Below are positions 6,305 through 30,169 of a DNA stretch of 34,745 bases, in pieces. The position numbers were made by a program, and so were the translations under genes. Source of the stretch: Bryobacterales bacterium (lineage in GTDB: Bacteria > Acidobacteriota > Terriglobia > Bryobacterales > UBA6623); contig JAJDTX010000045.1 in assembly GCA_022826925.1 (NCBI GenBank), positions 1-34,745 on the forward strand, read 5' to 3'. Positions within the stretch are counted from its first letter, which is position 1, and every line of letters begins with the position of its first letter. The notes below the pieces were generated by a model. It searched no databases. It was not told the DNA's origin and saw nothing but the letters and a program-made list of their open reading frames with translations.

Positions 6305-6589
6305 ATGCACCCCCTAATCGAATCTCACCGTTCCGAAATCCGTGCCTTGGCCGAGCGCCACGGCTTCCACGATGTGCGCGTGTTCGGCTCCATGGTGCGT
6401 GGCGATGTGGATAAACGGAGCGACGTCGATCTACTGGTGACGCTATCGGCTGGCAAGACAGGCTTAGCTCTGGGCGCATTACTGATGGACGTCCAAGATT
6501 TGCTGGGGCGACGGGTCGATGTGGTGACTGAGAATTGCCTGCATCCAGCCTTTCGAAACCGGATGCTGCGAGAGGCACAGATCCTTTGA
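6305..6589 (+). CDS. MNT-type nucleotidyltransferase (MntA-like antitoxin), copy 1
   Basis: A 94-residue minimal nucleotidyltransferase. VFGSMVRGDVDKRSDVDLLV (26-45) contains the family motif G28-S29-x10-D40-x-D42, the metal-binding active site. In MntA/HepT systems the MNT protein AMPylates a tyrosine in the RX4HXY motif of HepT and so neutralises this RNase. The start at 6305 fits the usual ~95-residue size; 6269 would add 12 unsupported residues. TGCTATCAT at about 6225-6233 in the upstream spacer may be a -10 element. The downstream partner gene begins three bases after the stop and carries an internal stop codon, so the pair is probably non-functional as a toxin-antitoxin module. Confidence 0.85.
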   Translation: MHPLIESHRSEIRALAERHGFHDVRVFGSMVRGDVDKRSDVDLLVTLSAGKTGLALGALLMDVQDLLGRRVDVVTENCLHPAFRNRMLREAQIL

Positions 6590-6591
6590 GG

Positions 6592-6945
6592 ATGGATCCT
6601 GAACGGGACTTGGTGCTCCTAGGGCACATCCGTGAGCGTATCGCCCGCATCGAAGAGTACACCGGCGGGGAACGATCAAGGTTCTACGATTCGCGGTTAG
6701 TGCAGGACGCCGTAGTACGCAATTTGCAGACAATCGCGGAATCTACGCAGCGGCTCAGTGACGGCCTCTAGGGAACCGAGCCCGAAGTGCCTTGGCGTGC
6801 TATCGCTGGCTTTCGCAACGTGCTTGTGCATGACTACTTCGAGATCGACCTCGAGGCGGTCTGGGGCGTCGTGGAGCAGGACCTGCCAACGTTGGTTGGT
6901 GCAGTCGACCGGATGACGCACATCGTAAGGACTCGCCGGCCATGA
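6592..6945 (+). pseudogene. HepT-like HEPN toxin with internal amber stop
   Basis: From ATG 6592 the frame reads MDPERDLVLLGHIRERIARI, continues as a DUF86/HepT HEPN protein, and stops at TAG 6769-6771 after 59 codons. The same frame then continues without further stops to TGA 6943-6945 and encodes the missing half, including GFRNVLVHDYF, which holds the HEPN catalytic RX4HXY motif (R75, H80, Y82). The whole frame would be 117 codons, close to normal HepT length. A single sense-to-TAG change therefore removes the active site from the product. It lies three bases after the MNT gene, in the usual order. A sequencing error or stop suppression cannot be excluded. Confidence 0.78.
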
Positions 6946-7737: not shown

Positions 7738-8766
7738 ATGCTGGCTCGGCTCGCAGCGGCGGTTTCGATTCTCACCGCGATGGGTGCCGCCCAAGTCCCC
7801 GCGCCGCCTCACGAAGACCCAGGCTTGACGATCCGGGTCGAATCGAACTTGGTTCTTGTGCCTCTCCATGTTTCGAAGAAAGGGACTGCCGTGACCGGGC
7901 TCGGGCCGGAAGAATTTGAGGTCTTCGAAGACGGAGTCCTCCAGGAAGTTGCCTTCGTTGAGGGTCCGGCCGCCCAAGGCGAGAGCACCTTGCACCGCCG
8001 CAGGGTGCCGAAGGAGATCATCTTTCTGATTGACGTAAGCCTCAGCGTATCGAGATGGAGGCTGCTGGATGACGAAACGCTCCGTAAGGGTATCCTCGAC
8101 GCATTAACCGAGGACTTCCTGATTTCGATTTACGGCTTCGGAAGCCGGCTCAGGCACTACGCCGGGCCAACTCGCGACCCCGACGAGTTGGTACGTGCCC
8201 TGCACCAACTGGCGGTGGCTAGGGAAGGGCGGAGCCTCGTTTACAACTCGATCTTCAGCACGCTCAGCCATGCCGAACAGAGAGGAGGAAATGCTCGGAG
8301 GAGGCTGCTAGTTTTTTCAGACGGCATGGACACGACCAGATTCAATCCGTCTAGGGTCGTGGAAGCTGCCAACGCATTGGGAATTTCCATCAGTCCTGTC
8401 TTAGTTGCCCCTCGAGAATCGCTTGCCACTTCTGGGCCACCTGCGAGAACAGGACCCAAGGCAATTGATCTGAATATCTCCAAGCGCCGGGCAGCTCTAA
8501 GGTCAAGCGACTATCGCGCCCACACCGGTAAGTTCCACGGTCTCGGCCAGAAGACAGGCGGAAGTAAGTACGTAATCGACGTGATGGACTGGATGTCTTT
8601 GTCCCGCATCACAGAGTCAGTCTCGAAGTTGGCGCAGACAGAGTATCTGGTGGGCTACTACCCACGCAACGTTGACGAAGGGATCACGATGCACGAAGCC
8701 AAGATTCGATTGAAAGACAAGAGGATCGGCAAGCTACGTGGTGGCCGGCGGCTCGTCGCTCATTGA
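7738..8766 (+). CDS. vWFA-related Acidobacterial-domain protein
   Basis: A 342-residue exported protein. Residues 1-~19 form a signal peptide (MLARLAAAVSILTAMGAAQV). It is followed by the beta-rich segment typical of the family (VESNLVLVPLHVSKKGTAVT, GLGPEEFEVFEDGVLQEV) and a von Willebrand A domain with the metal-site D99-V-S101-L-S103 in IFLIDVSLSVS. The C-terminal TEYLVGYYPRN segment is also characteristic of this family. Function is unknown; vWA domains usually bind protein ligands through Mg2+. ATG 7738 is preferred to an upstream 7663 start because the signal peptide begins there. No clear Shine-Dalgarno is seen; TACCAT lies nine bases upstream. The 3' end from about 8497 is duplicated at 30170. 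Confidence 0.85.
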   Translation: MLARLAAAVSILTAMGAAQVPAPPHEDPGLTIRVESNLVLVPLHVSKKGTAVTGLGPEEFEVFEDGVLQEVAFVEGPAAQGESTLHRRRVPKEIIFLIDVSLSVSRWRLLDDETLRKGILDALTEDFLISIYGFGSRLRHYAGPTRDPDELVRALHQLAVAREGRSLVYNSIFSTLSHAEQRGGNARRRLLVFSDGMDTTRFNPSRVVEAANALGISISPVLVAPRESLATSGPPARTGPKAIDLNISKRRAALRSSDYRAHTGKFHGLGQKTGGSKYVIDVMDWMSLSRITESVSKLAQTEYLVGYYPRNVDEGITMHEAKIRLKDKRIGKLRGGRRLVAH

Positions 8767-9019
8767 TTCGCCAAGGTCGGCGATGGCGTGATGGTTGCCC
8801 CTGACTGTCCACCAGACTAAGGCGGGCACACTTGAGAAGGAGCCGTTAGCCGTCGGCCCGTTCAAGACCGAAAGTCAGCCGCATACGTGTTGCTTTGGCA
8901 TGACGGCGCAGGGTCCTGACCGACGGCAATAGCCTGCCTCCCTCCAGCCGAGCAATTGCCGATTGTGTTGTTCCGATACGCTCAGCCAGTTGCGATTGAG
9001 TCAGGTTCGCTGCCGTCAA
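8497..9019 (+). repeat. 523-bp duplicated segment (vWFA 3' end plus XRE 3' end), copy 1
   Basis: Bases 8497-9019 match 30170-30692 with a constant offset of 21,673 and no net gap. The match covers the last ~90 codons of the vWFA gene, the short convergent spacer and the helix-turn-helix part of the XRE gene. It stops abruptly at both ends: before 8497 and after 9019 the two loci are unrelated. Substitutions are scattered, so the duplication is not brand new. Confidence 0.9.
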
Positions 9020-9163
9020 GATCCCTCGGTTGATTTCGTATGTGAATTCGGTCTGCCCGTCCGCAGGCCGTCCAAGCCCCCGAACTGTGCGAGTGATGGT
9101 TTGCTGACTATGCCGAGGGGGCGCGATGGAACTCAAGCGTTTCGGCGGAGATTTCCGCAGCAA
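8846..9163 (-). CDS. XRE-family HTH regulator / antitoxin-like protein
   Basis: The C-terminal ~55 residues are a classic XRE/HTH_3 domain (LTQSQLAERIGTTQSAIARL, then EGGRLLPSVRTLRRHAKAT), as in HigA-like antitoxins of the type that partner RelE/HigB toxins. The N-terminal ~45 residues (TTG start at 9163) are poor: only EFTYEINRGIL looks family-like, and a short deletion around there is possible. The true start is unclear. No RelE/HigB reading frame is visible upstream; instead the decayed gene at 9126 overlaps on the other strand. It ends convergently with the vWFA gene. It may be an orphan or degenerating antitoxin. Confidence 0.6.
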   Translation of the reverse strand: MLRKSPPKRLSSIAPPRHSQQTITRTVRGLGRPADGQTEFTYEINRGILTAANLTQSQLAERIGTTQSAIARLEGGRLLPSVRTLRRHAKATRMRLTFGLERADG

Positions 9164-12275: not shown

Positions 12276-13586
12276 GTGCCCACAATCGAACTGTCGGAGT
12301 GGCAGCATGCAACACCTGCGTCAAATGCGGAACTGCGGAATCTCGATCTCGGCCTCGGACCGCCGGAACGAGCCATGCTCGCCCGCCTCGATCAACAGTC
12401 CATGGTCACAGTGCAGGAACTCCGCGATGGAGTGGCGGTCAAGACCACCTCGTACGCCGGCTCGGTGCGCGCGGGCCCACTCACCGTCAGGATCACGCCG
12501 AAGCTCACGGGCCGCCCGTTCTCGGCACTCCTGGGTTACGCCGTGGGCTTGCCGGTAAGCCTGTTGGCGAAACATGAAGTGGCCCTCACCACTTCGGCTT
12601 TTCAGGACCTGATAGTCTCCAGCCTCGCCTCGGAAACTTCACGGTTGCTCGTCGGCGGGATCTACCGCACGTACCTGACCCGCCAGAACTTGTTACCTAG
12701 CCCCCGAGGGCGAATCCTATTCTCCCGTCTCGCGCGCGAGCCCGTGACAACGGCGACGTTACCTTGCCGCTTTGACGAGCGGCATGAGAACGTGCTCCCG
12801 AATCAAGTGTTGTTGGCGGGCCTCGATCTCGCGGCTCAGGTGGCCATAAGTGGTGAGATCAGAGCCCTCGCCCAACGACTCCGGAGCATACTGGCGGACC
12901 GTGTGGAAATGGTGCCGCTTAACGAAGACACGTTTCAGGCGCTCCGGCGCAGTGAGAGTCGCTTGATAAGTGCGTACGAACCGGCCTTCGCGCTGATTCG
13001 TTTGCTGGCTTCCGGATCCGGTATCGGACTGGGTGACGGTGCAGCACGGGCTCAACTGCCGGGCTTTCTGATTGACATGAATCGGTTGTTTCAGGAGGCC
13101 CTCGAGCGTTTCCTGCGCGAGTGGCTCGAAGACGTAAACGTCTTGCCGCAATATCGGTTGCAGCATATGTTTCGTTACGATCCGAACTTTAACCCTCGCC
13201 TACAGCGTTCGCCGATACCGAGGCCGGACTTCGTGCTGCGCCGCCGGGGCCGTGTGGTCGCCATCGCCGATGCGAAGTACCGAGACCTGTGGAGGCACAG
13301 CCTGCCTGCCAGCATGTTGTACCAGCTCAGCGTATACGCCTTGAGTCACGCGGACTGCAGAACCGCGGTGATTCTGTACGCGACTAGCTCCACGGCCGCA
13401 CGCGAGGCGCGGATCTCGATCTCGGACCCGATTAGTGGGGGTGCTCGTGCAAAGATCGCCTTGCGTCCCGTGTGCCTACCGTTCCTTGCGGACTTAATCC
13501 GCCGGAAGCGGAACGCCGCGGATGATCGACACCGCCATGAATACGCAGCTCTCTTGGCCCACGGTACACAGCCGAAAGTACCGTAG
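12276..13586 (+). CDS. mcrC: McrC nuclease subunit
   Basis: 436 residues, the partner of the upstream McrB. The N-terminal half matches the McrC family: an early SYAGSVRAGPLTVRITPKLT segment and FDERHENVLPNQVLLAGL. The nuclease core is PD-(D/E)xK: RPDFVLRRRG with D318, then VVAIADAKYRD with D332 and K334. McrC stimulates McrB NTPase activity and cuts DNA when two McrB-bound modified sites communicate. The GTG start lies three bases after the mcrB stop with GAGGAG upstream, so the genes form one operon. It converges on the nuclease-helicase gene, about 175 bases away. Confidence 0.92.
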   Translation: MPTIELSEWQHATPASNAELRNLDLGLGPPERAMLARLDQQSMVTVQELRDGVAVKTTSYAGSVRAGPLTVRITPKLTGRPFSALLGYAVGLPVSLLAKHEVALTTSAFQDLIVSSLASETSRLLVGGIYRTYLTRQNLLPSPRGRILFSRLAREPVTTATLPCRFDERHENVLPNQVLLAGLDLAAQVAISGEIRALAQRLRSILADRVEMVPLNEDTFQALRRSESRLISAYEPAFALIRLLASGSGIGLGDGAARAQLPGFLIDMNRLFQEALERFLREWLEDVNVLPQYRLQHMFRYDPNFNPRLQRSPIPRPDFVLRRRGRVVAIADAKYRDLWRHSLPASMLYQLSVYALSHADCRTAVILYATSSTAAREARISISDPISGGARAKIALRPVCLPFLADLIRRKRNAADDRHRHEYAALLAHGTQPKVP

Positions 13587-13762
13587 GTGGGTCTGACACC
13601 TCTTCGGTTGCGTGAGAGCGTAGCACCGACTATGCCGCGAACGACGGGCAGTCACGTCGGACAGGTAGAGTCTTCCGTCGCCCGCTGGCCTTCTGCAGAA
13701 CTATCTTTACTCAACCACCAGTCCCGAGAGTCCGCAGAGCATGGGGACGAGCGAAGAACGGG

Positions 13763-16700
13763 TTAGGCCCCACTGATGTCGCCCACCGAGGCGACCTCCG
13801 CCACCGCACCGTCGTCAAGGTGGAAGCGTCGGCTGCGACCGTCCGTGCGAGCGGTATGGACGAGTTGACGCATGTAGGAAAGGCCCGTGGCAACCGTCGG
13901 CGAATCGAGCACCTCCGGGCTGGCATCGAGCAGTGGCTGCGGCAAGAAGACTATGGACTTGACCCTTGCACGGGTGATCGCCACGTTCAAGCGATTGCGG
14001 CTGTAAATGAAGTCCGCCTCCGAAGCGGCGAACTCGGGGTCAGCCACTCCGTACGAAATCAGGACCACGTCTGCCTCCTGGCCCTGCATCTTGTCGACGG
14101 TGCCCACAAAAGGCTGCGCGCTCCAGTCGCGACGGCGGGCAAGCGCTTTGCGGATCGCCCGGATCTGCGCATGATGCGGGCTGATTATGAACAGGCGCTC
14201 CCGCCAGAAGGTGCTGTCGTCCCCGGGGTCGGCTATGTCTTCCCGCAGAACCACGGCCAGTTGGCTCACCAGGTCCGCTTCGACGGCGTTGACGTTGGTC
14301 GCCTCGACACCCTCCAAGATCACGACGACCAGCGGCGTGTCGGGAGAGAGGCACGTGCCGGTGAAGGACCTGCGGCGCTGACGCAGCCCGAGTCGCCTTG
14401 CCGCGATCTCCGCGGAGGCACATTGGTACCCGGCCCCATACAGCGGGCGAGCCGCCTTTGTCAGCACGTCGCACATCCGCCAATTCTCGAGAAGCTGACA
14501 TACCGGTGCTCCCTCCCGGCCGCGGCCATCCCGCAGCAGGTCGAATATCGAACCGTGCAGAAAAGGTTCGCCGTCGGGGGGATCCGGATAGACGCCAGAG
14601 AGGATCGGCCCCAGTTGATGATGGTCACCAGCAACCACCAAGCGACCCCGTCCCCCGATCCGCTCGATGGCTAAGGCCGCATCGGGGACCTTTACCTGGG
14701 ACGCTTCGTCGATCACCACGAGGTCGAACTTGTCGCTCGACTTGGCCAGACCCCACACCGTGCTCCCCAGAACAGCTATGGGGTGATCCCTCAACCAGCC
14801 GTCGGCAGTCGCTGCGTCGATCGCTTCGACATCGCCCCCCGAATCAGTTTCGGGGCCACCCACCTTTGCCATCGCGGGGACCGGCCGATCCAGAGCCCGG
14901 GCGAGTTGCACGACCTTACGCAACAGATTGTCGATTGCGGCGTGAGTCATGGCGGTGATCAGAACGCGGCCCGGAAGCTCCGTTGGAGGCCCCTCGCAGA
15001 ATCCGAGCACGAGCGCTGCCAGAAAGTGCGTCTTTCCGGTTCCCGGCGGCCCCCATACCGACGTTACGCGCGACGCGGCTACGGTACCCCACGCCTTCGC
15101 TTGACTCTGAGTGAGCCCGAACGCGGAGCCATCGGTGGCCAGGGCTCCGTCGCCCGGCTGCGGCAAGAGCGCCGCCGAAGCCGGGTCGTGCAGCAGTTCA
15201 ACGAACATTCCGCCGCGTTGGTCGAGCCGCGTCAGTCCCTCAAGAACCTTGTCGGTATTGAAGTCTAGGTAGCCCGGCATCAGCAACACGCGGGCGTGCT
15301 CTTCGAGTGGTGGGTCGGGCTGACGAGTCCAGCCGATGCGAACTCTTCGGGCGAAACCCAGAGGACTCTCGTCGACCTCAATGACTCTTCCGACTCCGAA
15401 GTCAGGATCGGCCCCTCCTACCCACGGCCGTGCCCGATGTGCCCAGTCATTGAATCGAGCCTGTGCGCGCAGGCCTGCCGGACTGTCGCGCACGATTAGC
15501 CAGCGGTTGAATCTAGACGCCTCGATCTCGAGACCGGCGGCGGTCAACCGGAACCATTGACCCGCTTCGCAGACCATTGGCCTCAGCACTCCGCGGGCGG
15601 CCAGCGATGCGCGCGCATCGAAGCGCTCCGCGCGAACCGCGAGGCACTCCATCACGCTCTCGTAGCGCGCCAAGAACGCCAGCCGGGACAACTGGGGACG
15701 GGTGATGCCGACCGATGGAAGCAGGCGGTGCTTCGGCGGCCAGGCAACTAGCTGGCCGCCGGCGAGAGTCCGGAGCCTTGACAGCACATGGCGGTAGGCG
15801 CGCAGGCGCCGGGCAGCCTCCCGAACGACAGCCTGGAGGTCGATGTCCGCGCCGTTGCATGCGCGGTACACATCGTCCGGTCGGACGCCGTGGCCAAAGG
15901 GATAGTGGAATCGCTCTGAACGGGAAACCGCGAGGCTCGAACCGAGCGCATCGAGCGTCTCGGACAGCGTGTACGAGACATCCACGGGCAACGCAAGGAG
16001 GCTCCCGACGGCCGAGACGAGCGGGATCACCGGGTGCGGAACCACCTCCTCTGGATGATCGTCGGCCAGAAGCATCTCGGGAGCCTGCAGGTGGAAGAGG
16101 AGGGACATCGCTAGCAACGACAGTGCAGGATCGTGCAGCGATTCCATCAGGACGCGCACGAGGCGTTCGCGCTCCTGCTCGCTGTAGCAATAGAGTTGGA
16201 CCGACAGCTGATCCCGCCACTCGCACTGCCTCGAATTCCAGAGGTCAACACGGCGCAGCACCTCATGGAGCCGACGGATGAATCGCGCCCGGACATCGAA
16301 GCACTCCTCGCGTTTTGATGCGATCGCCACGAACGGCCGGGGGGAGCCTTGCTCCTGGAAGAGCTGGTGCCGTACGTCTTCGCGAGCACGCACGAGCATG
16401 CCGAGCAACCACGTTCGGTCCTCTACCGGCTCCGTTTGAGCTGTCAGAAAGATCGCCACGTTCTCTCCCACGGGTAGTGCCGGGTGGATTCCGCCCACCT
16501 CCTGGGGTGCGTCCTCTTGGTACGCATTGACGCGTGCTTCTAGGCCCGGGCGCTCACCGGCAAGCGACGCGCAACGTTGCAGCTGCGCGTCAGCATCCGA
16601 GCGGCCCAATGCAGCCGACAGATCCGGCAGCGTACGTACGCCGAGAGCCCGGCCGAGGAACCGCTTGCCATGCGTCGTGAGTCCTGCGAGGCGGGAGACG

Positions 16701-17503
16701 CTGTTGGTCGCCACCATCTCGGATTGACAGTGATCGAGATAGTCACACCACTCGCACCGAAAGCGGACGTGCCACTCGGCCGCCCCGGGCGGCTGCCCGA
16801 GCAGCGCCGGAAGACGCATCAGCAGATCCTCCAGATGGGGCCGGATGACTCGCAGGTCGAAGTCTTCGGGTTCGGGCGATCCGCCCAGCCACGCCGCACC
16901 GGTGTCGAGATCGACACTGCCGCCCACCCGGTGGGCGCGCACGATATGCTCGAGCTCCATTGCATAGAACAGCACTTGGATGCGATACGGCAGCCGGACT
17001 GACGCCCCCCGCTTCATGTCGATCACTCGAAACCGCCGACCTCCTGCGCCATCGCTTGCGACCTCCACGAGGTCGGGCCGGTTATCCACGATCTCGATGA
17101 ACTTCGGATCTAGGTTGAACTCCGCATACAGGGAGGGGGGCGCCCGCAGCGTCAACTGGTAGAGAAACTGCCCCGGTTGCGCTTGCCGCAGCTGTTCAAG
17201 GCTCTCTTCGACGGACCAGACCCGGTCAGAGAGCTTGCCGTCTCCTTCCGCAATGAGCGCGTGATTGGAGAGATGCTCGGTGAGAACCTGTTCTTCCCAG
17301 TCCCGGCCGCTGGCTAGCACAGCCTGCGAAACAGATCCCGACTCAAAGGCCCGAGAAGGGACACCATTCTGGGTGGGCCTGCGCGTGGCGCGGAACCGGA
17401 GAAACCGCTCGCAGTCGTGGAAAAAGTAGCGCGCTACGACCGAAGGGCTCAATCCGAAGCTCGGGTTGTGTGGCTCCGGCGAGCTACGCATCCTGCGGCT
17501 CAC
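13763..17503 (-). CDS. Dna2-like protein: Fe-S RecB-type nuclease plus SF1 helicase
   Basis: 1246 residues. The N-terminal ~270 residues form a Cas4/AddB/Dna2-type nuclease: LSPSVVARYFFHDCERFL with C31; PDLVEV...FRVIDMKRG, supplying the D...D-x-K active site; YRIQVLFYAMEL; and C250-E-W-C253-x5-C259. The four cysteines fit a 4Fe-4S cluster. The C-terminal half is an SF1 helicase of the Dna2/UPF1 type: Walker A GPPGTGKT (K824), Walker B VVIDEAS (D932, E933), DKMQGQEADVVLISYG (~1135) and SRNRLNVAITRARVKS. The middle ~500 residues are unassigned. The GTG start overlaps the TGA of the upstream ATPase gene (GTGA), indicating tight translational coupling. Likely role: DNA unwinding and degradation in phage defence or genome surveillance (inference). 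Confidence 0.85.
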   Translation of the reverse strand: MSRRMRSSPEPHNPSFGLSPSVVARYFFHDCERFLRFRATRRPTQNGVPSRAFESGSVSQAVLASGRDWEEQVLTEHLSNHALIAEGDGKLSDRVWSVEESLEQLRQAQPGQFLYQLTLRAPPSLYAEFNLDPKFIEIVDNRPDLVEVASDGAGGRRFRVIDMKRGASVRLPYRIQVLFYAMELEHIVRAHRVGGSVDLDTGAAWLGGSPEPEDFDLRVIRPHLEDLLMRLPALLGQPPGAAEWHVRFRCEWCDYLDHCQSEMVATNSVSRLAGLTTHGKRFLGRALGVRTLPDLSAALGRSDADAQLQRCASLAGERPGLEARVNAYQEDAPQEVGGIHPALPVGENVAIFLTAQTEPVEDRTWLLGMLVRAREDVRHQLFQEQGSPRPFVAIASKREECFDVRARFIRRLHEVLRRVDLWNSRQCEWRDQLSVQLYCYSEQERERLVRVLMESLHDPALSLLAMSLLFHLQAPEMLLADDHPEEVVPHPVIPLVSAVGSLLALPVDVSYTLSETLDALGSSLAVSRSERFHYPFGHGVRPDDVYRACNGADIDLQAVVREAARRLRAYRHVLSRLRTLAGGQLVAWPPKHRLLPSVGITRPQLSRLAFLARYESVMECLAVRAERFDARASLAARGVLRPMVCEAGQWFRLTAAGLEIEASRFNRWLIVRDSPAGLRAQARFNDWAHRARPWVGGADPDFGVGRVIEVDESPLGFARRVRIGWTRQPDPPLEEHARVLLMPGYLDFNTDKVLEGLTRLDQRGGMFVELLHDPASAALLPQPGDGALATDGSAFGLTQSQAKAWGTVAASRVTSVWGPPGTGKTHFLAALVLGFCEGPPTELPGRVLITAMTHAAIDNLLRKVVQLARALDRPVPAMAKVGGPETDSGGDVEAIDAATADGWLRDHPIAVLGSTVWGLAKSSDKFDLVVIDEASQVKVPDAALAIERIGGRGRLVVAGDHHQLGPILSGVYPDPPDGEPFLHGSIFDLLRDGRGREGAPVCQLLENWRMCDVLTKAARPLYGAGYQCASAEIAARRLGLRQRRRSFTGTCLSPDTPLVVVILEGVEATNVNAVEADLVSQLAVVLREDIADPGDDSTFWRERLFIISPHHAQIRAIRKALARRRDWSAQPFVGTVDKMQGQEADVVLISYGVADPEFAASEADFIYSRNRLNVAITRARVKSIVFLPQPLLDASPEVLDSPTVATGLSYMRQLVHTARTDGRSRRFHLDDGAVAEVASVGDISGA

Positions 17504-20500
17504 TCCTCATCAACGACCAGATCTCCCGCAAGATCGCCGGGGTCCAGCGGTTCCAGTCCCTCAAGAGATAGCTCCGAAACAGTCTCTGCGGTCACGGTGG
17601 CGGGCCGCTCGGCGTCGGCAACCCAAGCATTCGCGTAGAATCCGTACCGCAAGTGCGACGGGTGCCGCGTCCATGGGATCGGGAATACCCGAGGGCTCGC
17701 GGTCTCCGTGGAGTCGACGACATAGAGCCAGTAATCCACTCCTTCTTCGTTGTGCTGCACCGCGTCGTGAACTTGCCGAGCCGTCAGTACCACGCTGGCA
17801 TCGGTTTCAAAAAGTCCGCTGACGCCCTTTACCTCGATTCGTCGCTGGTGCCCTGTGGCGTCGTCGATGCTGAGCACATCGAAGCCCGGATGTTGATCGT
17901 CCATCTCCTCGGCCCGTCTCCCCCGGTGGTTCTCGTAGCGGACCACGGCCTGCCGGGCGGCATAGTCGTCTTTGCGACGGCCTCCGCCCGAATCCGCGCC
18001 TTCGCCATTCGATGCCAGTTCACTTCGTCGTGTCACAAGCAACGCAGCAAAGTGATCGGCCGCTCGGACGGCGCGAGATGGCGAACGCACTGGGAGGGCT
18101 CGTCGGGTCCCCTCGCCACCTTCCAGTTCTGCGCGTCCCGCGAGGCCGGAAGGACTGCGCACGCTCGTGAAGGACGATCGACTTGGGGTTCGGAGCCCGT
18201 TCGTTTCCGTTGCTATCGTCGGCGTGTGCTCCTGCTCCGTAGGTTCTGCCGTCGGCGCTTCTTCCTGTTCCTCAGCCCCATTGGGAACCGTAACGGAATC
18301 TCCTGTAGGCTCGTCGTGCAGGTCCGGCTGCGGAGGAGAGGGCTCGACGCCGAGCCCATCTGCCAGCACCCGAAGGTTGCGTAGGAAATCGTCTGCGTCC
18401 TCGAGTGCGAAGAGGGCGCCGGTGAGCCATGGGATCTCGTTTCCGCGCTGCCCCAACTGGAAGTGCTCGACGAGTTGCCCCGTGGCTTCCACAGCGAAGG
18501 AGGCCGGGCGTCCCACCAACATCAAAGTCCCGTCGTCAACATAGGCTTGGATAGCGTGATCCTTACCGAACACTTCAAGCGAAAGCGCGTCGAGGAACTT
18601 GACCTCGCTGAGCGGCCGTCGGTCTTCGAGCCGGGCAAGCGTTTCTAACAGCCGATGCAATCGATCAACCCACGGCGGGTTGCCGAGAACCGCTCCTGAA
18701 TTGACATGTACATCGTCGGATACCAGATCGACCTTAAGAGCGTACGCTACTCGGTGGATCTGGTCGCTGGTGTCGCCAAGGTGAGCGGAGGCAACTGCGA
18801 TCCTGTCCTTCGGCAAGAATTGGTGGATGAGCGGGGACTGGACATCATCGATGGCGATACTCGGGCCGACGCGGTGCCACTCGCGGCGACCGTACAGGCA
18901 AGTCTCCGTCCGGACGGTGCTCCAATCAACGGCTGGCAGCAGGCCCGAGTCGCGGTCATCGAGCACATAACGGTACGCTGCTGCGAGGCGGCCGCGGAGG
19001 TTCTCGACACGGGAGGGTTTCCGATTCCAGACGTCCTTTAAGAAGTCGAGCGCCTGTCGCCCAGTCGTCGTCTCTGGTATATCCAGCGGGAGGCTCATCA
19101 CCGCATCGGCCAGCTCGGGATCGAGATCCGAGAGAACGACCACCCAGCCCCCGAGATCACTTCGTTGCCCGCTCCCCGGCCCTGCTCGCTTCACAGTCCG
19201 GCCAGACAGAGGAACCCCATCGAGCCGGACGGCATCCAGAGCGCAGAGCACCTCCTCCTGTGTTGCACCGCCCTCTTCGAAGAGCGTGCACACTTCACGG
19301 AGAAGGTCTGCGAGTTCGTTCTCCGGCACGTTGCTGCCTCCTCGCCGCTGCAGGCGACGCAGAATTGGAGATTTGAGTACTTTGAAACCGAAACGGACGC
19401 CCTCTTCCTCCAATCGCGACGCCAATTCCGGGTCAATCTCGGCGATCGGTGCGTCCTCGAAATCGGGATGGGATTCGAGCAAGGTCTCTTCGGGCCGACG
19501 CCGTTGACCGTCAGTGCAAAGCAGCCATGGATGGTCCTGCAGGTCGTGCACCCAAGCGGTCGGTGCCTTTCCGGACTTCCGCTGAGGGGAGTAGTAATGG
19601 CTGTGCGCAGTCCGCCGCCCCTTTCCCTCGAGGGCTGTGTGTTCATGAGACAACCAGTCCTGTAGCGCCTGGTGCGGGACGGATTCGACCGTAAACGGGA
19701 AGTGGTAATTCACTACAGAGTAGCCTCTCCAATTCGCGGCTAGAACCTGCTGCACCTCCACGCCGATCAGTTCAGCCACAAGCTGGCGAGCATACTCAGG
19801 GACTTTGCGCTCCCGCTTCTCCAGCACACCTCCCCCAGAGACCCCAAGGCGCTCAAGAAACCGCACAACGGCCCTACGGTCTTCGATAGCGGCGTATTGC
19901 GGTGCTATAGCCGGTAGGTTAGGGAAGAGCTGCCGTCGACTCCGTCCGCCCGCGACGAACGGATCTGCGAGAAGTGCTTCGGCCGGACTGCGGGCACCAG
20001 CCTCAGTGAGTACGAGAGGTACCAAGTCCTGACGTCGCTCACCCCTATGCAATGCCCATTCCATGAGCTGGACTAGCGGAAGATCGTCCGGATCATCGGC
20101 GTAGTCGCAGGCACGTTGGACCACCGCGCTCAGCTTTACTTTCTTGTGCTGGTCGGTCAACCACTTGGTTCCCGCGTTGTCAGTTTGGTTCACGTATCGT
20201 CGCAGCCTAGCGGGCAGTCGCTGGTCGGGACGCGGAAGGTATTCCGCGAGCGAAGCCGCAACGGCAAGCCCGCCGGGCTCCTTTTCGGTCGGTGGCTCCT
20301 CATTCATCCAGATGGTCCCGCTCGCCTGCATCCATTGGCCCGCCTCCGTCGGGACAACCGGCACATCCTCCCAGCTGCATTCGGCGACTCCGCCCCATAG
20401 AGCCACTAACGCTTTACGCTGCTGTTTCTTCGAGAGCGCATCCCACCAATGCGGCAGGGTCTCACCCCACTCCACCTCATCCGGATCGATCTCATTGCCC

Positions 20501-21879
20501 CATCCCAACCACCGGGCGAAGGCGGTGGCCCGTTCTCCCAAAAGTGTTTCGTCCATGATGTCGCGGCCGAACAGCAGCTCCGCCCGCCACCCGGACGCGA
20601 ACGTATCGCGGAACGGGCCGGGTAGGAGCGCCACTTGGTCCGGCGTACAGAACCGTCTGTGACTCCTCCCGTGGACCGGGATGACCGGCTGGTCGGCGAG
20701 GATTCCGCTGAGGTCGCCCCGGAGGATCCGGAACGATTCCGCCACGGGGCCGTCATCGCCGCTGGGGTCGCACAGTGCATCGTACCCGCGAGACCGCATC
20801 TCGTCCGATTCCTCGGCCAGCCAAGCCAGGAATTGCCCAACGATGTCCGGCACTTGGCGCACGATTGCCTCCTGCCATGGACTGCCCTCAACTTGGCGGA
20901 GGCTCTGCCGATCGATGTCGACTAGCCAGTCCGCCTGTAGATGGAATCCGAAAGGGATCCGGGCCTGCGTTGGAAGTGTTGAATAAACGCGTCCGCGCGC
21001 TGGGGGGCGTGGCAGGCCGTCTTCATCGAGAGGCAGCAGTCCCACGACGCTCCGCTCGACTCGGCGGCCCTCCGCGTCGATCTGGTCCTGAAGACTCTGT
21101 CTTACACCCAGGAACTGGCGCATCGCCGCGTCATCCGGTCGGTACCGGGAGACGAATGTCTTCCACCGCCAGAGCCCAAGGCATCGGGAGCGACGGATAG
21201 ACACGATCCCGTCGTCAACAGAGAGTTCCCAGACCTTGTCGCCGACACGCACCTCCGTGAGCCCGCGCAGTGCCAAGACAGCGAGAGGTGTCGGGTCCTC
21301 CACTGATGCGAGATATTCGAGATCCTTCCCGACCGATAGAGCCGGGTCGGTCGGACGCTGGAGGCGAAACGCGGTCGTATAGCTCTCGTCAGGGTCGGGT
21401 GCGTCGTCATCCCAGTGTGGACACAGCGTGTCGAACCATTCCGGCACGGTGGATCCGAGTGCCCCCGTCCGGACGTTGACATCGAACCCGAATCTCCATC
21501 CGAAACCTGATACCTGTGCCTCTCGAAAGCGAGCGAAAACGGACTTGAAGCCAATACCCATGAAACCGACCGCCCCGAGGCCCTTGGTAGATGCGCCGAG
21601 CGATGCGATGCCGCGGACATCGGATTCGTCCAACCCGTCGTCACCATCGTGTTGGAATAGTGCACCATCGCCATCGACGCGCCAACATATCCGCCGTGCG
21701 CCTGCGTCGAGCGCATTCTGGGTTAGCTCGTAGACATACATCCAGGGGTGCGGCAGGGCGGGAGTGAGTAGCTTCTGGACAGCTTGACGCGCTAAGTCCC
21801 CGAAGTGGTCCTCGTTCTCCTGCCGAATCCTTGCAACAGCCGATCGGCGGTCGGCAACACAGGCTGCCCTTATGTCCAT
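17500..21879 (-). CDS. GHKL-ATPase / DUF3883 (NO VEIN-like) protein
   Basis: 1459 residues from ATG 21879; a TTG four codons earlier (21891) is possible. The N-terminus is a GHKL (Hsp90/MutL/MORC-like) ATPase: YELTQNALDAGA with E51, N55 and D58 (N box); HDGDDGLDESD near 77-87; GFMGIGFKSVF near 105-115. The C-terminal ~120 residues are DUF3883 (PF13020, NO VEIN C-terminal): GFDVLSIDDATGHQRRIEVK, with E1349 and K1351 consistent with a PD-(D/E)xK-like core, then YWLYVVD. The long middle resembles other sacsin/NOV-type ATPases but is not assignable. A proline/acidic/threonine linker precedes DUF3883. First gene of an operon with the overlapping nuclease-helicase, suggesting a two-component machine: ATPase clamp plus helicase/nuclease. 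Confidence 0.85.
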   Translation of the reverse strand: MDIRAACVADRRSAVARIRQENEDHFGDLARQAVQKLLTPALPHPWMYVYELTQNALDAGARRICWRVDGDGALFQHDGDDGLDESDVRGIASLGASTKGLGAVGFMGIGFKSVFARFREAQVSGFGWRFGFDVNVRTGALGSTVPEWFDTLCPHWDDDAPDPDESYTTAFRLQRPTDPALSVGKDLEYLASVEDPTPLAVLALRGLTEVRVGDKVWELSVDDGIVSIRRSRCLGLWRWKTFVSRYRPDDAAMRQFLGVRQSLQDQIDAEGRRVERSVVGLLPLDEDGLPRPPARGRVYSTLPTQARIPFGFHLQADWLVDIDRQSLRQVEGSPWQEAIVRQVPDIVGQFLAWLAEESDEMRSRGYDALCDPSGDDGPVAESFRILRGDLSGILADQPVIPVHGRSHRRFCTPDQVALLPGPFRDTFASGWRAELLFGRDIMDETLLGERATAFARWLGWGNEIDPDEVEWGETLPHWWDALSKKQQRKALVALWGGVAECSWEDVPVVPTEAGQWMQASGTIWMNEEPPTEKEPGGLAVAASLAEYLPRPDQRLPARLRRYVNQTDNAGTKWLTDQHKKVKLSAVVQRACDYADDPDDLPLVQLMEWALHRGERRQDLVPLVLTEAGARSPAEALLADPFVAGGRSRRQLFPNLPAIAPQYAAIEDRRAVVRFLERLGVSGGGVLEKRERKVPEYARQLVAELIGVEVQQVLAANWRGYSVVNYHFPFTVESVPHQALQDWLSHEHTALEGKGRRTAHSHYYSPQRKSGKAPTAWVHDLQDHPWLLCTDGQRRRPEETLLESHPDFEDAPIAEIDPELASRLEEEGVRFGFKVLKSPILRRLQRRGGSNVPENELADLLREVCTLFEEGGATQEEVLCALDAVRLDGVPLSGRTVKRAGPGSGQRSDLGGWVVVLSDLDPELADAVMSLPLDIPETTTGRQALDFLKDVWNRKPSRVENLRGRLAAAYRYVLDDRDSGLLPAVDWSTVRTETCLYGRREWHRVGPSIAIDDVQSPLIHQFLPKDRIAVASAHLGDTSDQIHRVAYALKVDLVSDDVHVNSGAVLGNPPWVDRLHRLLETLARLEDRRPLSEVKFLDALSLEVFGKDHAIQAYVDDGTLMLVGRPASFAVEATGQLVEHFQLGQRGNEIPWLTGALFALEDADDFLRNLRVLADGLGVEPSPPQPDLHDEPTGDSVTVPNGAEEQEEAPTAEPTEQEHTPTIATETNGLRTPSRSSFTSVRSPSGLAGRAELEGGEGTRRALPVRSPSRAVRAADHFAALLVTRRSELASNGEGADSGGGRRKDDYAARQAVVRYENHRGRRAEEMDDQHPGFDVLSIDDATGHQRRIEVKGVSGLFETDASVVLTARQVHDAVQHNEEGVDYWLYVVDSTETASPRVFPIPWTRHPSHLRYGFYANAWVADAERPATVTAETVSELSLEGLEPLDPGDLAGDLVVDEE

Positions 21880-23132
21880 ATATGGATCCAATGTTAGCGA
21901 CGGTCAGCAGGCCCGGCGAGCGAACGCTTTCCCGTACCGAACTCCGGGGGGCGCTCGCGAACCGGAGAGTCCAAATCCTTGCCTCCTTTGGCGACGTTCC
22001 GAAAGCTGGCAGGGACCCCCGAAATCCAGTGGGTCGTGCAGAGCGCGTCAGCCGTGGCCGTGGCCCTCCCATTCGGACACCGCACTCCTCCCGCACCTCG
22101 ATCACCGTCAACATGTGCTTGGCGCGAGTTCTCGCGACATAGCTGTTCGCATAGGCCCTAGTGCTGTCGCCGGTCCGCCAACTACAAGCGCAAGATCACG
22201 CATCCGCGGTTGATGAGCTTAATCGCGAGCCACCTCCCACACCAAGACTTCGCCTTAAGCCAATAGACCGGGCAGTCTCGCCACATATCGCTAGAGAACT
22301 CCGGCCCGGCTAGAGGCGTTCCCATTGATGCAGTCATCGAGATCACATAATGTGTCGCGGAATGCCACTGCAGGTCCCCGGGCAAATTCGTGTCGTGGGA
22401 AGCGATAAAGGCCGCCGCGGAGGCCACCACTCGTGCCCCCGAGCATTCAACAGTGGACTGACGCAGCGATAGCGTTCTCTCTCGCTAGCGTGGCTGGCGG
22501 TGTCGGACAACAGGCTAGCATCCGTTTCCGCCCCAGTCGTAATCTAGCGCCGTGCGGCCTCGCCGCTCCCAGACGTGCCCGAAACGGGTGGCCGCTGACG
22601 GGAAATAGATCAGTCCAGCTAGCCGACTGGGCCTCGAAAACCGCGTTCTTCGCTACGGGCTGGACAAGATCTGTGACGCTACATGTTGTGACTGGAAGAG
22701 CTCGACAAGCCGGGACCCCGATCGCAGCCGCCAAGAATCGGGCTTATCTCCTGTGATTGACTGGTGCGAGTTCCGGGCTTCAGCAAAACCCATCGCAGCG
22801 GTACCGAATCCGTTGCGGTATGGGACGCGCTCGAGGCTCGCTGTGGAGCCAATTTGCGAGCTCGTCCCGCCGCAGGTCAACGGCGACCGCGTCTAGGCCG
22901 CCTACTGCGCGCCGAGCAGTTCGAGCGCCCTAGAGAGATCATGCAGGAGTGAGCCGACAACACCTAGAGCCCCTGATGAGAGCGTCCTCGAAGTCTCTCA
23001 GCTACTGCGGCGCTTGCTCCCCTGATTCGCCTCGCTGGTCGACACGCAAAACTCATCGCCGCACGCTTCGCCAAGGGCAGCGGGTGCCGTCGTCCTGCTA
23101 TGCTGGCTCATCCTACGGTCAAGGAGTCGGGC
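21880..23132. other. Long gap with no supportable gene
   Basis: About 1.25 kb between the ATPase gene start and the GIY-YIG gene. Frames such as 22182-22430 (-), 22433-22756 (+) and 22447-22734 (-) overlap one another, with no domains or clear ribosome sites. It should contain the promoter of the leftward ATPase operon near 21.9 kb and of the rightward nuclease gene near 23.1 kb (TGCTATGCT at 23096-23104 could be an extended -10). It may be decayed coding sequence. I see no tRNA, hairpin array or repeat. Confidence 0.45.
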
Positions 23133-23918
23133 ATGCCCAGTGAAATGTCATGGAAGCAAGCGATAGTTCAAGTCCTGCGGGAGGAAGGCGGGCCTTTGCA
23201 TTACGACACGATCGTCGAGAGGATCTCGGAGTCCCAACTACGCTCTTCATTTGGCGCAACGCCAGCGGCCACGGTGGCCTCCGTCATTAGCCAGTCGCTG
23301 AAGAACGATGCGAACCCACTGTTCGAGCGGGTCGAACGAGGGCAGGTTCGCCTCGCCGATGATAGTTCTATCGCCGCTGGCCAGAAAGACGACGAGCAAC
23401 CGGATGACGTTGCAGGAATCGTGACCGCCTTTGGGATGTACTGGGATCGGTCGTACGTAGATTGGGAACCGACAAAGCCTAGGCTACTCGGCCAACAGAG
23501 CAAGAACTCAGACGAAGTGGATTTCTCGGATCAGATTGGCGTCTACCTGCTGTATGACCGGCGCGAGATCGTATACGTGGGCCAGTCTAACGAAGAACGG
23601 AAGCACTCTTGCATCGGGCAGCGACTGAAGCTCCACACCAGAAACCGACTGCGATCTCGCTGGGATCGGTTTTCTTGGTTTGGCCTGAATCCGGTTGGCA
23701 AGAGCGCTGCGTACTATCCTTTGGGCAATGGAACTGCTGGCGGTCAGAACAGTGCAACAAAGGCCATAATTGATGTCATGGAAGCGGTGCTGATCGAGGC
23801 CATCGAGCCACGACAGAACAGGCGGCAAGGGGACTACTTCAGAGGACTCGAGTACTTGCAGGTCGAGGATCCGCAAGTCGCGAAGAAGAAGCTCATTCAA
23901 GCACTGCAAACGCCCTAG
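23133..23918 (+). CDS. HARE-HTH and GIY-YIG nuclease protein
   Basis: 261 residues. Residues ~1-70 form a HARE-HTH winged-helix domain (SWKQAIVQVLREEGGPLHYD, TIVERI, ATVASVISQSLK), a DNA-reader domain found in RNA polymerase delta and in chromatin and restriction proteins. Residues ~130-260 form a GIY-YIG nuclease: GVYLLYDRREIVYVGQS (variant GVY...YVG), the arginine in IGQRLKLHTRN, the glutamate in VLIEAIEP and the asparagine in RQNRRQGD. ATG 23133 is chosen over 23100 because AAGGAG sits six bases before it. It probably acts as a single-protein restriction-like nuclease, perhaps sensing modified DNA (inference). Nothing co-directional adjoins it until the AIPR gene 560 bases on. Confidence 0.85.
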   Translation: MPSEMSWKQAIVQVLREEGGPLHYDTIVERISESQLRSSFGATPAATVASVISQSLKNDANPLFERVERGQVRLADDSSIAAGQKDDEQPDDVAGIVTAFGMYWDRSYVDWEPTKPRLLGQQSKNSDEVDFSDQIGVYLLYDRREIVYVGQSNEERKHSCIGQRLKLHTRNRLRSRWDRFSWFGLNPVGKSAAYYPLGNGTAGGQNSATKAIIDVMEAVLIEAIEPRQNRRQGDYFRGLEYLQVEDPQVAKKKLIQALQTP

Positions 23919-24477: not shown

Positions 24478-26184
24478 ATGCCAGGCAACTCTCAACTACT
24501 TCTCCAAGACGTCCTTGATCAACAGCGCAGCGAGCGGGCCCCTGACTCATCGCAGCAATATTACTTTGAGATTTTTTGTGCGGAGCAGATCCTTAAAGAC
24601 TATAACTTGTCTTATGAAGAGTTGCAGACTGGGATCGTTGATGGTGAACACGATGGCGGTGTAGATTCCGTCTACTCTTTTGTCAATGGCGAACTCGTGG
24701 GTGAGGACTTTGACTGCTCACATTTCAAGAGAGGGGTCGTTATCGAGCTACACATAATTCAGTCCAAGACAGCAGCAGGATTCAGCGAAACACCTCTCAA
24801 TCACCTAATCTCTATGCCTCGATACCTCCTGAGTCTTGATTCCACTTATGCTGATATGCCACAGTATAACGACTCATTGAAGTCAATTATAGATAACTTC
24901 CGCAACGTCTTTCGAGGTCTTGCATCGAAGTTCCCAGATTTGAAAATTTCGTACCACTATGCTGCAATGCGGTCCGACGGCCAAATTCACGAGAATCTAG
25001 CTCGCAAAGCCGATGAGCTTGAATCAGTTGCCAAGGAACTCTTTGACAGTGTGTCTGCTGAGGTAAGATTCCTTGACGCTAGGAAGTTGTTGGATTTGGC
25101 ACGGCGGCATCCGCCGACTTCTCACGACCTTCGCGTGTCGCGAAACCTTAGTGACACCGGAGGATATGTTGTCTTGAGCTCTCTAGGGGATTACGTCAGA
25201 TTTCTCAAGGGAACTGAGGGAAAAATCCAGGCCGAGTTGTTCGAGTCGAATGTTCGCGATTTTCAAGGAAATACAGAGGTCAACAATGAAATAAAAAACA
25301 CATTGGTCAATGAGAGATCGGTCGATTTTTGGTGCATGAACAACGGCGTCACCGTACTAGCAAGCCGGGCGACTTTGAATGGAGATATCGTAACGATGGA
25401 GAATCCGCAGATTGTTAATGGACTTCAAACGTCAAGACAGATTGCTGAGTACTATCAGCCTGACGCCGAAGATAATCGCACAATTCTAGTAAAGATTGTG
25501 TCTTCGGAAGACGAAGAGATTAGAGACAAAATCATCAAATCAACGAATAGCCAAAACGCCATTCAACCCGCTACGCTACGGGCTACAGACAAAGTGCAGC
25601 GAGATATCGAAGCAGCGCTACAGTCCGCCGGACTACATTATGATCGGAGGAAGAACTTTTACAAGAATCAAGGGAAGCCGGTGTCTAAGATTATAAGTAT
25701 TCCGCTGATGGCACAGTCGATAATGACGATCTTGCTTGCAAGGCCCGACACCGCTCGAGCTAGGCCCGCATCGCTGATCAAGAACGACGATGATTACTCT
25801 CGAGTCTTCTCCGAGGAGTATCCTATTCAGCTCTACACAAATGCAGCGATACTAATTAGGCGAGTAGAGGCCGTTCTCAAGGATCAGTCCGAGATGACCG
25901 CAAAAGACCGTAATAATCTTCGCTTCTACGTGCTCTTCTGGCTTATTGCCGTTCTCACCAATAGTCCGAGACCGACAGCATACAAGGTCGCGCAACTCGA
26001 TGGGGAGTCTGTGAACGACGTGGACATTGAGTTGGCCATGGAGAAGGTTCGGGATCATTACTGGTTCCTTGGGGGGACTGACGAAGTCGCAAAGGGGCCT
26101 GATCTCCGGACCGCTACAGTTGATGGCGTAGCGGTACATATTGAGAAAGTCAACAGATCGAAACAAGTGCAGAGTATCGGATAG
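24478..26184 (+). CDS. AIPR-family abortive infection protein
   Basis: 568 residues of the AIPR family (PF10592, abortive infection phage resistance, first described in lactococcal Abi proteins). Core signatures: NVRDFQGNTEVNNEIKNTL (~258-276), FWCMNNGVTVLASRA (~283-297), NPQIVNGLQTSRQIAEYY (~310-327), STNSQNAIQPATLRATDK (~358-375). The N-terminus has GGVDSV with D63 and IELHIIQSK with Q95-S-K97, resembling a PD-(D/E)xK fold with Gln in place of Glu. Thus a DNA-cutting effector is possible (inference). AIPR also occurs in MZA-type systems, but no Z1, MutL-like or other partner is adjacent. The gene is visibly richer in A/T than mcrBC and the helicase operon, suggesting separate acquisition. 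No clear ribosome site precedes the ATG. Confidence 0.9.
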   Translation: MPGNSQLLLQDVLDQQRSERAPDSSQQYYFEIFCAEQILKDYNLSYEELQTGIVDGEHDGGVDSVYSFVNGELVGEDFDCSHFKRGVVIELHIIQSKTAAGFSETPLNHLISMPRYLLSLDSTYADMPQYNDSLKSIIDNFRNVFRGLASKFPDLKISYHYAAMRSDGQIHENLARKADELESVAKELFDSVSAEVRFLDARKLLDLARRHPPTSHDLRVSRNLSDTGGYVVLSSLGDYVRFLKGTEGKIQAELFESNVRDFQGNTEVNNEIKNTLVNERSVDFWCMNNGVTVLASRATLNGDIVTMENPQIVNGLQTSRQIAEYYQPDAEDNRTILVKIVSSEDEEIRDKIIKSTNSQNAIQPATLRATDKVQRDIEAALQSAGLHYDRRKNFYKNQGKPVSKIISIPLMAQSIMTILLARPDTARARPASLIKNDDDYSRVFSEEYPIQLYTNAAILIRRVEAVLKDQSEMTAKDRNNLRFYVLFWLIAVLTNSPRPTAYKVAQLDGESVNDVDIELAMEKVRDHYWFLGGTDEVAKGPDLRTATVDGVAVHIEKVNRSKQVQSIG

Positions 26185-28085: not shown

Positions 28086-28157
28086 AATAGGGACATCCCG
28101 CGCAGCACGGTAGCTTCGATCTATCGGCAGGCGGGCTGGAGTGCGAGAGGAGCATAA
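28086..28157 (+). pseudogene. hicA-like toxin remnant 3 (C-terminal stump)
   Basis: Codons read NRDIPRSTVASIYRQAGWSA then RGA and TAA, i.e. only the last ~23 residues of HicA, four bases before hicB copy 3. Upstream there is no HicA-like sequence. Same truncation style as the stump at 7019. Confidence 0.7.
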
Positions 28158-28161
28158 ACCG

Positions 28162-28563
28162 ATGCGCTACGTATCCTTCATCCACCAGGACGATGCTGGC
28201 TACGGCGTCAGCTTTCCCGACTTTCCGGGCTGCGTGGCCGTCGGCGAGACCGTGGAGGAAGCTGTGCGTCGTGGGTGCGAGGCCCTAGCGTTCCACGTTG
28301 AGGGTCTCTACGAGGACGGCGATTCGATTCCGCCGCCACGCTCAATCGACGCCATTAAGGGCAACACGGAACTCGCCGACTGGCGCCGTGGCGCAGACTT
28401 CGTGCTGGTTCCGCTGCTGCTCGACCGGGGATCCTCTCGGCGAGTCAACGTCTCCCTCGACCGCGGGCTGCTCGAAGCGATCGACGACGAAGCTAGGCAG
28501 CGCGGAATGACCCGCTCGGCCTTCATCGCAACGGCCGCTCGCCATGAGATCGAGGCCACTTGA
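28162..28563 (+). CDS. hicB: HicB-family antitoxin, copy 3
   Basis: 133 residues; HicB domain (DDAGYGVSFPDFPGCVAVGE, 10-29) and C-terminal ribbon-helix-helix-like part (SLDRGLLEAIDDEARQRGMT, SAFIATAARHEIEAT). The ATG has AGAGGAG upstream, inside the hicA stump. By eye it differs from copy 1 at about 15 positions, and the last ~45 residues are almost identical. As with the other two, no working HicA is adjacent, so its role would be as a repressor or a free antitoxin, if expressed at all. Confidence 0.88.
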   Translation: MRYVSFIHQDDAGYGVSFPDFPGCVAVGETVEEAVRRGCEALAFHVEGLYEDGDSIPPPRSIDAIKGNTELADWRRGADFVLVPLLLDRGSSRRVNVSLDRGLLEAIDDEARQRGMTRSAFIATAARHEIEAT

Positions 28564-28828
28564 TCTAGCTAGGGCACGGTCTATCTCGATGGGAAGCAGC
28601 CTAGGAAAGACAGAACTCGGGGACTCCGACTTTGGTGGCGGGCCGAGACAGATGTTCCAGTCCGGGTGGTGCAAATGAGCGCCGGTCGGTGCCCGTGGTG
28701 GACACGCCACTCGTACGAAGCTGGCCGTGTGGCTACGAGGATCCGTTGCTATCATCGCGGATGGGCAAGCTCCGAAACCGCGCTGCGGTCCGATGGCCGT
28801 GAGAGCGGCACAGGCTAATGAGCGGTGT

Positions 28829-29113
28829 ATGCACCCCCTAATCGAATCTCACCGTTCCGAAATCCGTGCTTTGGCCGAGCGCCACGGCCTCCACGATGTG
28901 CGCGTGTTCGGCTCCATGGTGCGTGGTGATGTGGATGAACACAGCGACGTCGATCTGCTGGTGACGTTACCGGCTGGCAAGACAGGCTTAGCTCTGGGCG
29001 CGTTACTGATGGACGTCCAAGATTTGCTGGGGCGACGGGTCGATGTGGTGACTGAGAAGTGCCTCCTTCCTGCCTTCCGAAACCGGGTGCTGCGAGAGGC
29101 GCAGATGCTTTGA
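28829..29113 (+). CDS. MNT-type nucleotidyltransferase (MntA-like), copy 2
   Basis: 94 residues, nearly the same as the copy at 6305, with the active-site motif VFGSMVRGDVDEHSDVDLLV (G28-S29-x10-D40-x-D42) intact. The family AMPylates HepT toxins. The following hepT frame is only a 35-codon stump, so this antitoxin-like enzyme has no cognate toxin here. Confidence 0.85.
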   Translation: MHPLIESHRSEIRALAERHGLHDVRVFGSMVRGDVDEHSDVDLLVTLPAGKTGLALGALLMDVQDLLGRRVDVVTEKCLLPAFRNRVLREAQML

Positions 29114-29217
29114 AGGTGGCCCCCGAGTCCGACTTGGTGCTCCTCGGGCATATCCGTGAGCGCCTCGCCCGCATCGAAGAGTACACCAGCGGCGAACGAT
29201 CGAGATTCTGCGTTTGA
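29110..29217 (+). pseudogene. HepT-like toxin stump
   Basis: A frame beginning with TTG 29110 (overlapping the MNT stop) reads LVLLGHIRERLARIEEYTSG then ERSRFCV and TGA at 29215-29217. It matches the first ~40 residues of the hepT at 6592. Beyond it the sequence still resembles copy 1 for about 15 bases, then diverges. The RX4HXY catalytic part is absent. Confidence 0.7.
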
Positions 29218-30161: not shown

Positions 30162-30169
30162 ACGTCAAT

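Follow-up and report, generated by a model that had tools for sequence, protein, structure and literature searches.

Tiamat, whose protein is TmtA, is a one-gene defense system. Dna2 loads at a DNA end, unwinds the DNA and degrades it; Dna2 nucleases carry four cysteines in the order C-x(n)-C-x2-C-x5-C, and Dna2, like MutL, is a repair protein. The consulted portions of the literature list Tiamat among defense systems of unknown mechanism in a 2026 review (PMC12926258), describe GHKL proteins in restriction systems (PMC2292703), and report a modeled VcSduA dimer to which its authors ascribe a clamp-like cavity (PMC12137116). Here we describe an overlapping gene pair that combines features of these proteins. 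It lies in a stretch of 34,745 nucleotides, hereafter the window, which is contig JAJDTX010000045.1 (positions 1 to 34,745) of assembly GCA_022826925.1 from a Bryobacterales bacterium of the phylum Acidobacteriota. Gene 1 (17500..21879, minus strand) encodes a protein of 1459 amino acids with a GHKL (sacsin/Hsp90-like) ATPase and a C-terminal DUF3883 domain, a distant relative of TmtA. Gene 2 (13763..17503, minus strand) encodes a Dna2-like nuclease-helicase of 1246 amino acids. The pair is real and rare. On balance, we favor the reading that it is a restriction-type anti-phage module composed of an ATP-gated clamp and nuclease and a Dna2/DpdJ-type resection engine.

The gene junction and the two proteins

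The two genes overlap at positions 17500..17503 of the minus strand, where the TGA stop codon of gene 1 and the GTG start codon of gene 2 share the letters GTGA. This junction was claimed in a first-pass annotation made from the letters of the window, and it holds; the four active-site residues named there (E51 and K1351 of gene 1, K824 and C250 of gene 2) each stand at the number they were given. Gene 1 starts with ATG, and a TTG lies in frame at 21891. Note that an in-frame ATG of gene 2 sits 12 bases past the GTG and leaves the exact start of this gene unsettled; were the ATG used, a gap of 8 bases would separate the genes. A scan of 13500-23200 for promoters and terminators returned no promoters and six terminators, a result not above that of shuffled sequence.

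The GHKL ATPase of gene 1, together with a region resembling S5 and middle domains, spans residues 24-461 (20497..21810, minus strand) and includes E51, N55, D78, G105/G108/G110 and K112. The sacsin-type ATP-binding model of NCBIfam matched residues 53-125 (numbered in the frame from 21891) with 53.9 bits, over its curated cut-off of 50. In an alignment of 64 rows (A3), E51 and N55 were present in all 61 filled rows and K112 in all 62; G79, K99, G105, G108 and G110 were also invariant in filled rows, the exceptions being D78 (57/61) and D58 (60/61). The NOV_C/DUF3883 domain, of PD-(D/E)xK type, occupies residues 1308-1398 (17686..17958, minus strand; Pfam PF13020, E 9.4e-10). Its residues E1316, D1334, E1349 and K1351 were kept in 29/29 rows of an alignment (A1) made of 29 of the 98 gene-1 relatives that searches of protein databases recovered. 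DUF3883 is termed a novel restriction endonuclease domain in a table of PMC3710099. The Pfam scan of gene 1 (E 0.01) gave NOV_C and SACS alone, with no domain between GHKL and DUF3883.

The AlphaFold model of gene 1 residues 1-1189 (predicted local distance difference test, pLDDT, 88.5; predicted template modeling score, pTM, 0.52) has an N-terminus that resembles Hsp90/TRAP1, MutL, GyrB and MORC2/3, in structure matches that span residues 24-461. Sequence-profile matches to solved structures at E 0.01 were with sacsin only (best E 4.8e-4). Library matches and conserved residues agree with the GHKL boxes and DUF3883 core assigned to this protein in the first-pass annotation, and the model agrees with the GHKL assignment. 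Two TmtA models of PADLOC matched best at its two ends: PDLC03966 aligned positions 47-425 of 1655 with residues 53-410 (E 3.5e-24; frame from 21891), and PDLC03969 aligned positions 1291-1483 of 1563 with residues 1207-1405 (whole-protein E 1.4e-34). Since TmtA models match both ends, and since three distant gene-1 relatives (L017, L022 and L060) match TmtA along long stretches, the family of gene 1 is probably a branch near TmtA.

The nuclease motifs of gene 2, of RecB/Dna2 type, lie at residues 31-260 (16724..17413, minus strand). They comprise E70, D144, D162-x-K164 and Q176xxxY180, and four cysteines (C31, C250, C253 and C259) follow the order C-x(n)-C-x2-C-x5-C. The superfamily 1 (SF1) helicase core, with GPPGTGKT and the later motifs, lies at residues 797-1197 (13913..15115, minus strand). 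Searches of protein databases gave 471 gene-2 relatives, the best 120 of which were listed, and two alignments (A2 and A4) take in part of these 120. All 50 rows of A4 keep E70, D144, D162, K164, Q176, Y180, C250, C253, C259 and K824, and 45 of 46 filled rows keep C31. The helicase matched Pfam AAA_11 (E 4.8e-21) and AAA_12 (E 5.5e-20). The nuclease matched PDDEXK_1 weakly, with 19.8 bits under a cut-off of 22, so that its assignment rests on the motifs and the match to the Dna2 fold. The top Foldseek match of the predicted structure (pLDDT 88, pTM 0.84) was Dna2 (5ean, E 4.3e-27). However, whole-chain superposition on 5ean was poor (root mean square deviation 30 A, template modeling score 0.36-0.40), and the likeness to Dna2 is therefore one of domain by domain. 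Overall, conserved residues and the predicted fold support the four cysteines (putative Fe-S ligands), RecB-type nuclease motif and SF1 motifs that had been read from the sequence, and gene 2 is a putative Dna2-like nuclease with a predicted helicase fold of the UPF1/Dna2 class of SF1. Several relatives of gene 2 are proteins of about 2000 amino acids (P0186, P0198, P0206, P0210, P0211, P0212 and P0216), one from Pirellulaceae and one from Planctomycetota; parts of a UvrD-type helicase are among the Pfam domains listed for them.

The best PADLOC match of the helicase core was with positions 47-462 of the 2112 positions of DpdJ. In all three plasmids compared, gene 2 was colinear with two neighboring genes, the first for a protein of about 770 amino acids and the second for DpdJ, which gene 2 matches at the N-terminus; a PADLOC scan of one of these plasmids names DpdJ, in an alphaproteobacterial Dpd cluster. 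The ten nuclease and cysteine residues of gene 2 were all kept in the three plasmid relatives of about 770 amino acids. This suggests that the nuclease and SF1 part, found beside and inside one type of DpdJ, is a portable engine that also occurs fused and outside Dpd. In the plasmid stretch L057 (9989-18642; L056 and L058 are similar), the upstream neighbor of DpdJ is unmatched in PADLOC and keeps the Dna2/RecB-type nuclease residues and the four cysteines, and the DpdJ type has an SF1 helicase N-terminus; the two are possibly an overlooked nuclease-helicase arm. The first-pass annotation could match the pair to no named defense system and proposed a search of defense profiles. We likewise found no name for a two-gene system of a Tiamat-like and a Dna2-like protein in the defense libraries searched or in a literature search that covered few subscription papers; the separate proteins, on the other hand, do have named relatives, TmtA for gene 1 and DpdJ with its upstream neighbor for gene 2.

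Occurrence, descent and surroundings of the pair

The two genes were found adjacent again in a second, distantly related genome of the same phylum (G206), with the same GTGA and identities of 55% (gene 1) and 66% (gene 2). Full-length gene 2 was present in 2 of the 396 genomes sampled from the phylum, in both with gene 1 alongside, and nine more genomes of this sample matched gene 2 in the helicase part only. It was present in one of 200 genomes of the source order (its own) and in one of 193 genomes of the class of G206 (G206 itself). Gene 1 was found in 3/392 genomes of the phylum: the two pairs and a broken copy in a genome (G168) that is absent from the gene-2 matches of the phylum sample. 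An overlapping second gene accompanies gene 1 at both full-length loci of the sample.

Of the 23 gene-2 relatives listed with an identity of at least 56%, at least eight pair with a gene-1 record on a contig of identical length (six through gene-1 relatives and two through gene-1 fragments), and seven are on contigs under 8.2 kilobases (kb), the gene pair itself measuring 8.1 kb. The identity matrices of gene 1 and gene 2 correlate with r 0.98 over eight pairs (six from contigs of equal length, the window and G206), and only 76 of 40320 relabelings were as high; this value rests on three clusters of two, five and one pairs. Two of the ten pairs were omitted, their gene 1 being a short fragment; among the eight retained, the gene-1 protein is truncated in two, to 1144-1170 amino acids. 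These data speak for three lineages in which the two genes descended jointly, but not for co-evolution at a fine scale.

Both pair loci sit among restriction and abortive-infection genes. Neighbors in the window are AIPR/AbiU, McrBC, a restriction-modification gene of BsuBI/PstI type and GmrSD_N. The pair in G206 lies about 4 kb from a type I restriction-modification operon and less than 20 kb from a SIR2-domain gene, with an AAA_21 gene on its other side (10 open reading frames scanned). The mcrBC genes of the window are on the strand opposite to the pair and convergent with it, tail to tail, the end of mcrC being about 177 bases away. A tblastn search (E 1e-3) matched neither McrB nor McrC in 25 stretches, namely 22 gene-1 loci, some of them short, and three stretches that cover 225000-272868 of G206. 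Given the opposite strand and the lack of a match in these stretches, we reject mcrBC as a third component. The two-gene anti-phage or DNA-surveillance system with mcrBC that had been proposed stands in part: the pair looks like a unit, with GTGA kept in G206 and divergence correlated between clusters, and its surroundings are of the restriction and abortive-infection kind, but the inclusion of mcrBC is not supported.

One frame of 876 amino acids in the window (2177-4804) carries methyltransferase and BsuBI/PstI-type restriction enzyme domains. The AIPR protein (24478-26184) is a near full-length match of PADLOC AbiU (E 7.5e-181), with a HARE helix-turn-helix gene beside it (23100-23918). Direct repeats at 5619-6710 and 28143-29234 are 91% identical over 1093 bases and occur with HicB-like antitoxins, and a second set at 8496-9023 and 30169-30695 is 93% identical over 528 bases and occurs with the 3' end of a VWA gene. 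The block of McrBC, pair and AIPR lies between these long repeats, an arrangement that would fit a past insertion of the block or its possible loss through recombination.

Candidate function and competing explanations

The restriction-type module that we favor could operate in a few steps. Gene 1 would dimerize through its ATPase end, as do Hsp90, MutL and MORC. ATP binding may then close it on DNA and license the DUF3883 nuclease to cut, and gene 2 would load at the resulting end, unwinding and degrading the DNA from the break in the manner of Dna2. The target would be phage or plasmid DNA. The clamp steps are drawn by analogy with the GHKL proteins of restriction systems and with VcSduA. The methyltransferase genes nearby are not of one kind, with a BsuBI/PstI-type fusion in the window and a type I system in G206, so that a cognate methylase is a less likely basis for telling self from non-self than the structure or modification of the DNA. 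In a narrower proposal, the gene 1 clamp, with its own DUF3883 nuclease, would recruit gene 2 as a dedicated resection engine, and parts of Tiamat and Dpd would together form a "clamp, cut and resect" restriction machine that has two nucleases and no methylase; we advance this proposal tentatively and with clearly less confidence than the general module. If true, it would also indicate how solitary Tiamat and the plant NO VEIN proteins might act. The translational coupling of a GHKL-DUF3883 gene to that of a Dna2-like protein in one clade supplies a specific partner that can be tested, and it directs attention to DNA ends or structure as the substrate.

The explanation that survives best beside this module is that gene 1 acts by itself, as a single-gene defense of Tiamat type, and that gene 2 is an independent passenger, a defense or repair enzyme in its own right that chances to be translationally coupled to gene 1 in one clade. 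We consider it unlikely, though it deserves serious weight, since a number of observations tell against a functional module. In other bacteria and archaea, the flanks of 22 gene-1 loci contained no gene 2 (some flanks were short), and full-length gene 2 was found in none of these 22 genomes, which gave two partial SF1 matches; both of the gene-1 genomes recovered among 240 Gemmatimonadota belong to this group. The neighbors of solitary gene 1 were mixed, several of them housekeeping genes. On a gene-1 tree of 97 of the 98 database relatives, G206 and 5 of the 22 loci, the pair label was not clustered beyond chance (7 changes; 96/500 shuffles as low), and this scatter implies repeated gain or loss of the pairing, or its under-detection. 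Gene-2 relatives occurred in 4/294 genomes of Planctomycetota, and the stretches fetched around the four contained no gene 1. Two of them have the same ordinary sulfatase neighbor, which suggests a settled chromosomal gene, and the wider gene-2 family consequently need not be a defense family. Inside the cluster of five pairs the correlation of divergence vanishes (r 0.11, 46/120 relabelings as high), which slightly lowers our confidence in the module and in the narrower proposal. Furthermore, for 8 of the 23 gene-2 relatives listed, the contig is long enough to include gene 1 yet no gene-1 record is listed, and the pair contigs (six, plus two known through fragments) were deduced from identical lengths, not seen as DNA. 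Note however that protein clusters give the longest contig only, so that the absence of a gene-1 record is weak evidence.

Gene 1 and gene-2 relatives can thus each exist without the other, which makes the pair a combination that is either derived or repeatedly lost. What argues against a mere passenger is the GTGA overlap retained in G206 at 55-66% identity, the divergence correlated between the three pair clusters, and the listed gene-2 relatives matched to gene-1 contigs, with seven more on contigs too short for both genes. The co-occurrence count proposed in the first-pass annotation accordingly gave a mixed answer, the 22 genomes outside the clade speaking against the association and the equal-length contigs of at least eight of the 23 closest listed gene-2 relatives speaking for it. 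No other shared partner of solitary gene 1 recurred among 20 neighboring open reading frames in the 10 of 22 loci scanned. A viral or plasmid pool was also rejected: among viral contigs gene 2 had a single match, weak and partial, and gene 1 had no relative, while plasmids gave distant relatives only (4 gene-1 and 70 gene-2 records), a trail that led to Dpd. At one locus (L011, 5903-14512), an AddA-like UvrD-PDDEXK gene and a DUF932 gene stand just upstream of a GHKL-DUF3883 relative of 26% identity, all three on the same strand; an ATPase of this kind may have been paired there independently with a nuclease-helicase.

Less probable than the passenger is a DNA-repair or replication-fork module, in which a clamp like those of mismatch repair or Hsp90 would license Dna2-like resection on the cell's own DNA. 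The fold matches to Dna2 and MutL and the ordinary chromosomal surroundings of some Planctomycetota gene-2 relatives are consistent with such a role. The very rare and patchy distribution of gene 2 (2/396 in the phylum and its own genome only among 200 of the order), the restriction and abortive-infection genes around both pair loci and the kinship of gene 1 with TmtA make it improbable.

A reduced or re-used arm of Dpd (7-deazaguanine) restriction, acting on deazaguanine-modified or unmodified DNA, would account for the colinearity of gene 2 with the protein of about 770 amino acids and the DpdJ N-terminus. It is very improbable, since the larger, C-terminal part of DpdJ is missing from gene 2 and no annotated name in the three plasmid stretches suggests a GHKL-DUF3883 gene (hypothetical proteins were not all compared). 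DpdA was not matched in the source genome (G000) or in G206, in a search for this one gene made without a positive control. Finally, membership in a type IV system of the McrBC/CoCoNuT kind, suggested by the nearness of mcrC and by the McrB-like GTPase and UPF1/DNA2-like SF1 helicase that CoCoNuTs join according to the consulted text (PMC11090510), has the slightest chance of all, given that mcrBC is convergent on the other strand and that McrB and McrC went unmatched in the 25 stretches.

Comparison with known systems

Tiamat shares with gene 1 the N-terminal GHKL ATPase and a matching C-terminal end, and gene 1 is of a size covered by the PADLOC models of TmtA, which run from 1063 to 1782 positions. 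Unlike Tiamat, gene 1 is overlapped by a second gene, and its middle lies outside the best-matching stretches. The Dpd arm formed by DpdJ and its upstream neighbor has the nuclease residues, the four cysteines, the SF1 core and their order in common with gene 2, but it is made of two genes instead of one fused gene and has a different partner. Furthermore, the match of gene 2 stops at DpdJ position 462 of 2112, and the larger C-terminal part beyond, described in the consulted text as an SF2/YprA helicase (PMC12458937), has no counterpart. Eukaryotic Dna2 presents the same succession of a cysteine-bearing RecB-type nuclease and an SF1 helicase and provides the best Foldseek match, yet whole chains fail to superpose, and gene 2 has a GHKL ATPase as partner.

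VcSduA (paraMORC3, Shedu type I-D) resembles gene 1 in joining a GHKL ATPase to a C-terminal PD-(D/E)xK nuclease. It is a one-gene system with DUF4263, whereas gene 1 carries DUF3883 and its Pfam scan contained no DUF4263. Hachiman (HamAB) follows a two-gene nuclease-helicase logic and senses DNA damage, but with an SF2 Ski2-like helicase and a different nuclease, and the part of the source consulted does not mention a GHKL ATPase (PMC12278908). In McrBC and CoCoNuT terms, McrB and McrC are not co-operonic with the gene 2 helicase in the window and went unmatched in the 25 stretches searched. We do not file the pair as Tiamat, Dpd, McrBC/CoCoNuT or Shedu; it looks like a Tiamat-like protein paired with a Dna2/DpdJ-type engine.

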